A model generated the notes under the pieces. It did no database searches, had not been told where the DNA came from, and saw nothing but the letters and a program-made list of their open reading frames with translations. A DNA stretch of 43,107 nt from an uncultured Shimia sp. GTDB lineage: Bacteria > Pseudomonadota > Alphaproteobacteria > Rhodobacterales > Rhodobacteraceae. The position numbers were made by a program, and so were the translations under genes. The DNA lies in NCBI RefSeq assembly GCF_913054185.1, contig NZ_CAJXIV010000025.1:1-43107 (forward strand), read 5' to 3'. Below are positions 22,354-25,136 of the stretch, piece after piece (the first letter of the stretch is position 1; every line of letters begins with the position of its first letter).

Positions 22354-23133
22354 ATGAAAATCGCCACATTCAACATCAATGGCATCAAGGCGCGCATAGA
22401 AACCCTGCCCCGCTGGCTGGATGAGGCGCAGCCCGATGTGGCGCTGCTGCAAGAAATCAAATCCGTCGACGAAGCTTTCCCGCGCGAAATCTTTGAAGAA
22501 CGCGGCTACCAGGTCGAAACCCACGGCATGAAAAGCTTCAACGGCGTCGCGATCCTCTCCAAGCTCCCGCTTGAGGATGTAACCCGCGGTCTGCCCGGAG
22601 ATGAGACCGACGAACAGGCCCGCTACATCGAAGCCACCGTGATGGGCGACACCCCGGTACGGGTCTGCGGCCTCTACCTGCCCAACGGCAATCCAACACC
22701 TGGCCCAAAATACGACTACAAATTGGCCTGGATGGAGCGGCTATATACCCGCGCCCAGGAGCTTATGGCCACTGAAGAACCCTTCCTCATGGCCGGTGAC
22801 TTCAACATCATCCCGCAAGACGAAGACGCCGCCAAACCGGAAGACTGGCAAGAAGACGCACTCGCCCGTCCCGAAAGCCGCGCCGCCTACCGCCGTTTGC
22901 TGAACCTTGGATTCACCGAAGCCTTCCGTGCCCGCAATCAAATGCCTGGCATGTATTCTTTCTGGGACTACCAAGCCGGCGCATGGAACCGCAACAACGG
23001 CATCCGCATCGACCATTTCTTGCTCAGCCCACAATGCTCGGACCTGCTGCAAGATTGCCAGATCGACAAAGAAGAGCGCGGACGCTCTAAGCCATCTGAC
23101 CACGTGCCTGTCTGGGTAGACCTCGCGGCCTAA
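22354..23133 (+). CDS. xth: Exodeoxyribonuclease III
   Basis: A 259-residue exonuclease III-type AP endonuclease that cuts 5' of abasic sites and removes 3' blocking groups. Catalytic motifs of the family are visible: FNINGIKAR at the N-terminus, LLQEIKS with the metal-binding Glu, LYLPNGN, AGDFNIIPQDEDA, and SDHVPVWVDL at the C-terminus. AGGAGCG precedes the ATG. Its stop codon overlaps that of the convergent YedK-like gene by 4 bp, placing two abasic-site proteins back to back. Confidence 0.96.
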   Translation: MKIATFNINGIKARIETLPRWLDEAQPDVALLQEIKSVDEAFPREIFEERGYQVETHGMKSFNGVAILSKLPLEDVTRGLPGDETDEQARYIEATVMGDTPVRVCGLYLPNGNPTPGPKYDYKLAWMERLYTRAQELMATEEPFLMAGDFNIIPQDEDAAKPEDWQEDALARPESRAAYRRLLNLGFTEAFRARNQMPGMYSFWDYQAGAWNRNNGIRIDHFLLSPQCSDLLQDCQIDKEERGRSKPSDHVPVWVDLAA

Positions 23134-23741
23134 GGCGCATCCCAATCCACATCCGTAGCTTCTTCGATGGTCAGACATCCCTCTGGCCAAGGTACCATCA
23201 ACGGCGTGACCTCTTCCGTCGTGCCTGTGAGCCACAAATCAATCGCGTCTTTCTCAAGCAGAACCCCCATCCGATGATGGATCGGCTTCACGTCGCCATT
23301 GGGCTCACAGGTCACTGTCGCTACCTGATGCACCTCCCGCCCTCCGGGTGCGATCCACACATCCGTGATTGCCGCAAACACCAGTGGCTCACTGCCCTTG
23401 ATGCGCCACGCCGTTTTCTTGCGCTTCTCACCGGTCCACTCGTACCAGCCGTCAACAATCACCAAGGCCCGCCCAACGCCATCAAACGCGGACTTGTCGA
23501 ACACTGTCTCGGACCTCGCATTGACAATGGTTTCCATCACCGGCCGCCCCCGCGCATTCACGCGGCCAACCGGAATGATACCCCAGCGCATATGCTTGAA
23601 GCCATCCGCAGTCAGGCACACAATCTCCTGTCCCGGCGCTATATTCCGGCGTGACGGCTCATCAGAAACACCGACAACCTCACGACCAACCCACTGGCCG
23701 ATCTCCGTCATTGAGGTCTCAAGAAAAAGCCGCCCCGGCAT
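23130..23741 (-). CDS. YedK/HMCES (SRAP) family protein, Cys2 replaced by Pro
   Basis: A 203-residue SRAP-family protein. Known members shield abasic sites in single-stranded DNA by forming a thiazolidine crosslink through the N-terminal Cys2 of MCGR. Here the start reads MPGRLF, so the crosslinking residue is proline. The other active-site positions remain: Asn74 (VNARSET), Glu101 (VDGWYEW) and His155/156 (IHHRMG). No upstream start could restore a cysteine: the ATG lies 3 bp after the esterase stop and begins the conserved PGR motif. Length fits the family. It may be inactive, or use the N-terminal proline amine. Convergent with xth and co-directional with the esterase gene. Confidence 0.88.
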   Translation of the reverse strand: MPGRLFLETSMTEIGQWVGREVVGVSDEPSRRNIAPGQEIVCLTADGFKHMRWGIIPVGRVNARGRPVMETIVNARSETVFDKSAFDGVGRALVIVDGWYEWTGEKRKKTAWRIKGSEPLVFAAITDVWIAPGGREVHQVATVTCEPNGDVKPIHHRMGVLLEKDAIDLWLTGTTEEVTPLMVPWPEGCLTIEEATDVDWDAP

Positions 23742-23744
23742 AAC

Positions 23745-24422
23745 TCACTCCTTTGCGGCGCTCTCCGCCAAGCCCTGCACATATGGACCTAGCGCCGGTA
23801 CAATTTGCGCCACACCCTGCACATTGGGATGGATACCATCCGCCTGCATCAGCCCGCGTAACTGATCCGCGGGCAAATCCCGAATGGCCTCAAAGAAATC
23901 CGGCGCCAGCTCCACATTAAACTCAGCAGCCAGTTCGCCATACATCCCATCAAAGACTTGTTTGTAGTCCGCGCCAAAATTCATCGGCGCTTCCACCCCG
24001 ATCAACAGCACATCCACTTCCGCCGCCTGCCCAGCTTCGATGATCCCAGCCAAGTTGGCTTTGCTCACCGCTGGATCAATCCCACGCAAAGCGTCGTTGC
24101 CCCCCAACGAGACAATCATCGCATCCACGTCCGGCCCCAGGGTCCAACCAACCCGTGACAAGCCGCCCTGCGTGGTGTCTCCAGACACCCCCGCATTCTG
24201 CACAATCACGTCCAACCCTTGCGCCTTAAGCCAGCTTTCCAGCTGCGGTACAAAGCCATCACCTTGCGGCAAGCCATAGCCATGTGTGAGGCTATCCCCC
24301 AAGGCCGCAATCACCACCGGCTCCGCAAAAGCCGAGCAAACCGTTACCGGAACAACTAAAATGCCGAAGGTCAGCGCCTTGCCCGCGCGCTTAGACGCCC
24401 CATATAGGGTGGAAACATTCAT
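23745..24422 (-). CDS. tesA: GDSL-type esterase/lysophospholipase, TesA-like
   Basis: A 225-residue SGNH hydrolase of the TesA type: a periplasmic thioesterase, arylesterase or lysophospholipase. A signal peptide (ALTFGILVVPVTVCSAFA) is followed by the four SGNH blocks: GDSLTHGYG with the nucleophile, SGDTTQGG, LGGNDALRG, and DGIHPN with the catalytic Asp and His. ATG at 24422 is used; the frame also allows a TTG one codon upstream. It is divergent from the ABC exporter genes with only 18 bp between start codons, the same arrangement as tesA-ybbAP in E. coli. Confidence 0.9.
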   Translation of the reverse strand: MNVSTLYGASKRAGKALTFGILVVPVTVCSAFAEPVVIAALGDSLTHGYGLPQGDGFVPQLESWLKAQGLDVIVQNAGVSGDTTQGGLSRVGWTLGPDVDAMIVSLGGNDALRGIDPAVSKANLAGIIEAGQAAEVDVLLIGVEAPMNFGADYKQVFDGMYGELAAEFNVELAPDFFEAIRDLPADQLRGLMQADGIHPNVQGVAQIVPALGPYVQGLAESAAKE

Positions 24423-24440
24423 CAACAGGCGGCCTCTTTC

Positions 24441-25136
24441 ATGTCATCCATTCTCTCCCTTCAAGATGCGACTTTGGCGCTGGATAGCAATGCCGGACGC
24501 ATAGAAATCTTGCACGGAATCTCTTTGGACGTGCAGGCGGGGGAGGCTTTGGCGCTTGTTGGTCCATCTGGTTCAGGCAAATCCTCGTTGCTGATGTTGA
24601 TGGGCGGGTTGGAGCGCGCAACCTCCGGCACCATCACCGCGCTGGATCATGATCTCTCTGCCATGGACGAAGACGCCCTTGCCCGATTCCGCCGCGAAAA
24701 CATGGGGGTGGTGTTTCAGAACTTCCACCTAATCCCCACCATGACCGCGCTGGAAAATGTCGCCACACCTTTGGAGCTTTCTGGCCGTAAGGATGCACTG
24801 GAACGCGCCAAAGCCGAGCTTGAGGCTGTTGGCCTTGGCCATCGGGCCGATCACTATCCCAGCCAAATGTCCGGCGGCGAACAGCAACGGGTTGCGCTTG
24901 CGCGGGCCTGTGCCCCCTCCCCGCGCCTGCTGCTGGCGGATGAGCCCACCGGCAACCTCGACCAATCCACCGGCGAGACCATCATGGACCTGCTGTTTGA
25001 CCTACACGCCAAACGCGACACCACGCTGGTGCTGGTCACTCACTCCAATGCGCTTGCAAAACGCTGTGAACGGGTTGTCCGCCTTCGTGACGGTCGCATT
25101 GAAACACCTCTTGCGTCGGTCGAGGCCTCTGCATGA
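24441..25136 (+). CDS. ybbA: ABC transporter ATP-binding protein, YbbA/LolD type
   Basis: A 231-residue ABC ATPase of the MacB/LolD family. Walker [10 protein letters not shown] (about 47-55), Q-loop [17 protein letters not shown], signature [14 protein letters not shown], Walker [13 protein letters not shown] and the H-loop VTHS are intact. It pairs with the FtsX-like permease that follows, whose start overlaps its stop in an ATGA. By the neighbouring esterase and permease size it corresponds to the YbbA-YbbP system; the cargo is not established. Confidence 0.92.

Follow-up and report, generated by a model that had tools for sequence, protein, structure and literature searches.

The closest described relatives of the protein reported here are the SRAP proteins YedK of Escherichia coli and human HMCES, which carry a Cys residue at position 2. 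Cys2 is described as absolutely conserved in SRAPs (PMC3765255). In YedK, Glu105 and His160 open the ring of the abasic site, and Glu105 catalyzes the formation of a Schiff base by the N-terminal amine. The C2A mutant of YedK uses its N-terminal amine to form a Schiff base that borohydride can trap, and it cleaves DNA with abasic sites. These YedK findings are from PMC9436759. In the Fpg/Nei proteins, the N-terminal nucleophile is Pro2. The AP lyase activity of mycobacterial Nei2 on single-stranded DNA requires Pro2, the Nei2 structure lacks Met1, and the P2C mutant is inactive (PMC11323726). Since Nei2 P2C is inactive, a swap of the nucleophile is not trivially tolerated.

We analysed a window of 43,107 nucleotides from an uncultured Shimia sp. 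(GCF_913054185.1, contig NZ_CAJXIV010000025.1, positions 1-43,107, forward strand), which encodes an SRAP-domain protein with Pro at position 2. The gene, its second codon and the adjacent open reading frames (ORFs) are as follows.

23130..23741, minus strand: Pro2 SRAP-domain protein of 203 residues, ORF with an ATG start, identified by Pfam, AlphaFold2 and Foldseek
23736..23738, minus strand: codon 2, CCG, encoding Pro2 where SRAPs have the nucleophile Cys2, from the sequence and the alignment with YedK
23745..24425, minus strand: tesA-like GDSL esterase ORF, a conserved upstream neighbour on the same strand as the SRAP gene, separated from it by a 3-nt gap
22354..23133, plus strand: xth-like exo/endonuclease ORF, convergent with a 4-bp overlap, a neighbour that is not conserved

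The protein has in common with YedK and HMCES the fold, the Asn75/Glu105/His160 set, Arg4, Arg77 and Arg162 (YedK numbering) and the position of the N-terminal residue. It differs from them in having Pro in place of Cys2, a different basic loop, a shorter C-terminus and no thiazolidine through residue 2. A reading made from the sequence alone (hereafter the sequence-only reading) had assigned it to the SRAP/YedK family with MPGR in place of MCGR, and this assignment held. The ORF begins MPGRLFLETS from its ATG codon, and PF02586 (SRAP) spans residues 1-192 (E = 6.4e-36; 124.3 bits against a curated cut-off of 27.1), which places the protein in the SRAP superfamily by profile. A single NCBIfam model matched, with 44 bits against a cut-off of 349. 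An in-frame TGA lies two codons 5' of the ATG, a GGAG stretch is also found 5' of it, and the tesA-like ORF ends 3 nt before it. Since the TGA and the tesA-like stop adjoin the ATG, a longer, Cys-bearing start is excluded. The Pro2 ORF is confirmed as intact and genuine. It is also beyond chance, because Pro2 is found throughout the clade members read and is encoded by four different codons. An annotation or sequencing error at the start is contradicted by the upstream in-frame stop and the clade-wide Pro2.

The sequence-only reading had proposed checking whether Pro2 is conserved among Rhodobacteraceae, and every clade member read carries it. Among members from whole genomes, Pro2 is present in 51 of 51, which start [MV]PGR, and is encoded by CCG (34), CCC (13), CCA (2) or CCT (2); this set leaves out L002, identical to L031, and the interrupted L072. 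Pro2 is likewise found in 80/80 loci of the genome_contigs set, the best 80 of 340 relatives, and in 20/20 order-wide loci, among them one interrupted copy and several whose N-terminal part is shortened. The three sets overlap, with 21 sequences common to the first two and 5 of the 20 order-wide loci seen previously, and together hold 124 distinct clade sequences (without L112; one consists only of the opening fragment of an interrupted copy). Pro2 is thus fixed clade-wide and not confined to one strain. The starts among the best 80 of 340 comprise 69 MPGR and 7 VPGR by script, TTG in L108 and L109, MPGR read in L143, and AGG in L112. The AGG at the start-codon position of L112 (L112:6001) represents a rare start, an assembly error or decay. 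The record titles of these 80 relatives name Rhodobacteraceae sensu lato or bins, with genera that we take to belong there.

With the Pro2 protein as query, a search of 295 family genomes recovered 41 intact, closely related copies (54-100% identity) and one interrupted copy; clade members scored at least 217 bits, the interrupted copy 125 and the next match at most 90. The clade occurs in 12 of the 25 genomes of the genus and in 37 of the 149 genomes of the order search (at least 299 bits, against at most 140 for the rest). In the class search, 4 of 385 genomes had clade members, all Rhodobacteraceae (at least 319 bits); the next matches reached at most 135 bits, and those whose loci were read have Cys2 in 26 of 26 cases. 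Matches were found in 39 phage and 1243 plasmid records, all below 60% identity, and no relative was found in viral contigs with this single protein as query. A Pro2 SRAP was not described in the literature searched, most subscription papers lying outside that search. As judged from these sequences, the conserved Pro2 branch of SRAP is real, and its chemistry is predicted.

The active-site residues were located by alignment with YedK of E. coli K-12, whose residue numbering was verified.

23520..23522, minus strand: codon 74, Asn74 (YedK Asn75)
23439..23441, minus strand: codon 101, Glu101 (YedK Glu105)
23277..23279, minus strand: codon 155, His155 (YedK His160)

Residue counts were made after removal of duplicates and exclusion of L112 and the 20 order-wide loci, and the 125 Cys2 sequences used for comparison had been selected for having Cys2. 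All three residues are present in 109 of the 109 unique Pro2-clade sequences, which thus have the Asn/Glu/His active site of Cys2-type SRAPs, with Pro2 and not Cys at position 2 in all members read. Arg4, Arg76 and Arg157, equivalent to YedK Arg4, Arg77 and Arg162, are also found in 109/109. The sequence-only reading had listed Asn74, Glu101 and His155/156 as kept, which is correct for the first two and for His155, the catalytic His. His156 sits at the position of YedK Asp161 and varies within the clade (His in 103 and Asp in 6 of the 109). Cys145 (codon 145, 23307-23309) is invariant in one alignment and almost so in another; in an alignment with Cys2 SRAPs, one of five (L073) has Cys at this position.

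Among the Cys2 SRAPs, 121 of 125 have Asn75, Glu105 and His160 together, and the four exceptions (L202, L247, L249, L250) are without Asn75 and His160. SRAPs lacking Cys2 were encountered among 68 control loci of the same phylum (L216-L283), of which 28 were the best search matches and 40 were hand-picked and mostly lower-scoring. Cys2 is present in 56 controls by script and in L248 by eye; four were excluded for an unreadable N-terminus (L257, L280-L282), and seven lack Cys2 (L251, L252, L253, L254, L256, L259, L262). These seven, a small set of mostly lower-scoring matches, start with MSGR, MTGR, MAGR, MSTH or MSSC, residue 2 being Ser, Ala or Thr. Like the Pro2 clade they are without Cys2, but unlike it they never keep the full Asn75/Glu105/His160 set (0/7; His160 in none, Asn75 in three and Glu105 in three). 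Loss is partial, two of the seven retaining both Asn75 and Glu105, and with the four Cys2 exceptions among 125 this indicates that the linkage of Cys2 to the other active-site residues is not strict. The contrast of 109/109 with 0/7 points to two or more kinds of SRAP without Cys2. The seven controls speak against the view of Cys2 as absolutely conserved.

We lean towards the view that the Pro2 protein is a paralogous SRAP of Rhodobacteraceae, probably neofunctionalized, that carries out Schiff-base chemistry through the Pro2 amine as an AP lyase or a reversible trap. Removal of Met1 would expose Pro2. The SRAP pocket would bind an abasic site, presumably in single-stranded DNA, the sugar would be ring-opened by Glu101 and His155, and Pro2, through its secondary amine, would attack C1' and form an iminium (Schiff base). 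The adduct would then either undergo β-elimination, leaving a 3'-unsaturated aldehyde as in an AP lyase reaction, or be hydrolyzed back. A thiazolidine cross-link through residue 2 is impossible without a thiol, and since closure of this ring is lacking, the adduct would be expected to eliminate or hydrolyze. The iminium between Pro2 and the AP site is proposed because of the chemistry of YedK C2A and Nei2, by analogy. The sequence-only reading had suggested a non-thiol, perhaps reversible, abasic-site binder or lyase, a prediction in accord with what is published on YedK C2A and on the Pro2-dependent lyase of Nei2. YedK C2A (8d2m) likewise has an SRAP pocket and an N-terminal amine without a thiol at residue 2, and its Schiff base and AP lyase activity are published (PMC9436759). 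On the other hand, YedK C2A is one engineered mutant with a primary amine, whereas the Pro2 proteins form a separate natural clade with a fixed secondary amine. Its lyase activity may be a by-product of the mutation, which argues against the lyase reading. The conserved neighbour of the Pro2 gene is an esterase and not a repair gene, which argues in the same direction. The source genome also encodes one H2TH (Fpg/Nei-type) protein, and a second Pro-type lyase may therefore be redundant.

More tentatively, and with somewhat less confidence than an even chance would imply, we propose the specific route of a Cys cross-linker that became a turnover AP lyase (or a reversible clamp) on single-stranded DNA through its N-terminal Pro, converging on the Fpg/Nei nucleophile, with most bearers having another SRAP. 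The sequences suggest that a glue may have become a protein that cuts at abasic sites or holds them reversibly; this would be the role of the Pro2 protein, and the Cys2 paralogue would be the long-lived shield. A natural change of Cys to Pro with the active site otherwise intact means that evolution, not mutagenesis, parts the Schiff base from thiazolidine closure. If true, the proposal shows a route from a DNA-protein cross-linker to an AP lyase, and one lineage would have a shield and a cutter on one fold.

Pro2 occurs in both Nei2 and the SRAP ORF (PMC11323726), but the Fpg/Nei fold is unrelated, and Nei2 has Glu3 where the SRAP ORF has Gly3. An Fpg/Nei fold with an H2TH domain was not found in the Pro2 protein, SRAP alone being present in Pfam and in the significant Foldseek matches. 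Any likeness to Fpg/Nei is convergent. The AlphaFold2 model has a mean pLDDT of 91.7, with lower-confidence blocks at residues 61-70 in the loop (pLDDT 78) and 101-110, which include Glu101 (pLDDT 75). The modelled structure is predicted to have the SRAP fold, as all 21 PDB matches of Foldseek at E ≤ 0.001 are SRAP structures, with TM-scores by query length of 0.64-0.84. They include 8d2m, the Schiff-base complex of YedK C2A with DNA. PMC3765255 lists 2f20, 1zn6, 2bdv, 2aeg and 2icu as SRAP structures.

The Pro2 clade is remodelled in one loop and at the C-terminus.

23523..23570, minus strand: clade-specific basic loop VGRxNARGRP..., residues 58-73, in place of a loop that contains Trp in many Cys2 SRAPs

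The loop sequence VGRxNARGRPVMET follows W53-G54-x-x-P57. Its GR.NARGR core is found in 107 of 109 Pro2 sequences and none of 125 Cys2 sequences, while the loop of Cys2 SRAPs has a P-x-W motif, found in 83/125 of them, in 7/7 other Cys2-less SRAPs and in 0/109 Pro2 sequences. At the positions of YedK Trp67 and Trp68, the clade has Gly (108/109) and Arg (109/109). In the alignment, the Pro2 protein also lacks the C-terminal end of Cys2 SRAPs. Since both regions are altered, DNA binding is probably changed and the substrate may differ.

This remodelling would fit a protein that no longer performs AP-site chemistry and is a non-covalent binder of abasic sites, single-stranded DNA or 3'-overhang junctions, with Pro2 capping the pocket and the remaining residues kept for shape or DNA contact. 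The other Cys2-less SRAPs, in which the full catalytic set is missing from all seven, look non-catalytic and also speak for such a binder. So does the finding that Asn75 alone matters little for cross-linking by YedK at an internal AP site (PMC9436759). We nevertheless consider a mere binder unlikely, mainly because loss of Cys2 elsewhere broke the catalytic set, whereas here the set is kept and Pro is fixed. Pro2, Glu101 and His155 are invariant in 109/109, while the controls have Ser, Ala or Thr at residue 2 and have lost His160 in 7/7. A vacated site would not need strict fixation of Pro.

The genomic neighbourhood was counted in flanks of up to 6 kb among the best 80 of 340 relatives. In this set, 76 of 80 loci have the tesA-like gene immediately upstream of the SRAP gene, and the spacing is -1 to 9 nt in 68 of these 76. 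Beyond it come two ABC-transporter genes, present in 79/80 and 76/80. The xth-like gene had been brought forward by the sequence-only reading as a convergent partner with a 4-bp stop overlap. The arrangement is genuine, but it is not supported as a functional context, since an xth-like ORF is found in 5 of the best 80 related loci of 340. On the same count, xth is rejected as a general functional partner. None of four exact LexA-like patterns occurs in 23741-24900, which is weak evidence on SOS control; in the same type of scan, and equally weak as evidence, L001, which holds the Cys2 paralogue, has one GAAC-N3-GTTC.

The tight association with the tesA-like gene would be accounted for if the target of Pro2 were a different aldehyde (a 3'-unsaturated aldehyde end, a formaldehyde adduct or some small molecule), or if Pro2 served as a general base, in a tesA-linked pathway. 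The N-terminal Pro of the tautomerase superfamily, which serves as a base, is a precedent for the latter. We consider such chemistry distinctly improbable. The tesA pairing may be merely transcriptional, and the invariant Arg4, Arg76 and Arg157 match Arg4, Arg77 and Arg162 of YedK. Moreover, the retained residues are those that open the ring of the AP site in YedK (PMC9436759).

In a tree with residue 2 masked (26 Pro2 sequences, every second of the 51, and 57 Cys2 sequences; a quick tree without bootstrap), the Pro2 clade is monophyletic with an SH-aLRT of 99, and the Cys2 sequences likewise group together. Its stem is long (1.07 changes per column), and the tree does not resolve its branching point among the Cys2 SRAPs. 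The median dN/dS (NG86) is 0.10 for the Pro2 gene (48 usable of 66 genus pairs) and 0.076 for the Cys2 paralogue (35/66 genus pairs), indicating purifying selection on the Pro2 gene. A decaying or misread gene, arising from a start error, a sequencing error or pseudogenization, would suit the patchy distribution (12/25 genus genomes; 41 intact and one interrupted copy in 295 family genomes) and the interrupted copies in G287 and G884, but can be dismissed as highly improbable given the dN/dS of about 0.10, the in-frame stop upstream and Pro2 in all copies read. The statement of the sequence-only reading that the gene does not look like a decaying pseudogene is borne out by this dN/dS and the clade-wide Pro2. 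The interrupted copies L072 (G287) and L296 (G884) retain the MPGR start.

The source genome has two SRAP genes, the second of which lies on a different contig and encodes a protein of 218 residues beginning MCGRFAIT. Within the genus, an SRAP match above the cut-off is found in 25/25 genomes and two such matches in 12/25. The first loci (25, one per genome, plus L073 and L080) start with MCGR in 27 of 27, and the 12 second loci start with MPGR. The sequence-only reading had asked whether Pro2 co-occurs with a separate Cys2 paralogue. A Cys2 SRAP is present in the source genome and in all 25 genus genomes searched, but the co-occurrence is not obligatory, since 5 of the 41 intact bearers among the 295 family genomes have no other SRAP match and 36 have one. 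The five are G102 and G170 (83% complete) and G244, G295 and G309 (99-100% complete). Another SRAP is found in 36/41 bearers against 195/254 non-bearers (Fisher p = 0.15), outside the genus mostly counted by match and unread. A strict need for a second SRAP is rejected, as bearers without one exist and the rate is like that of non-bearers. The start of the second SRAP ORF is unreadable in G195 and reads MCN in G317. Divergent Cys2 SRAPs of the family (L196-L198, L200, L201, L203-L209, L211, L212) start with MCN, MCH or MCS (VCN in two) and not MCGR; Cys2 is therefore retained when positions 3 and 4 change.
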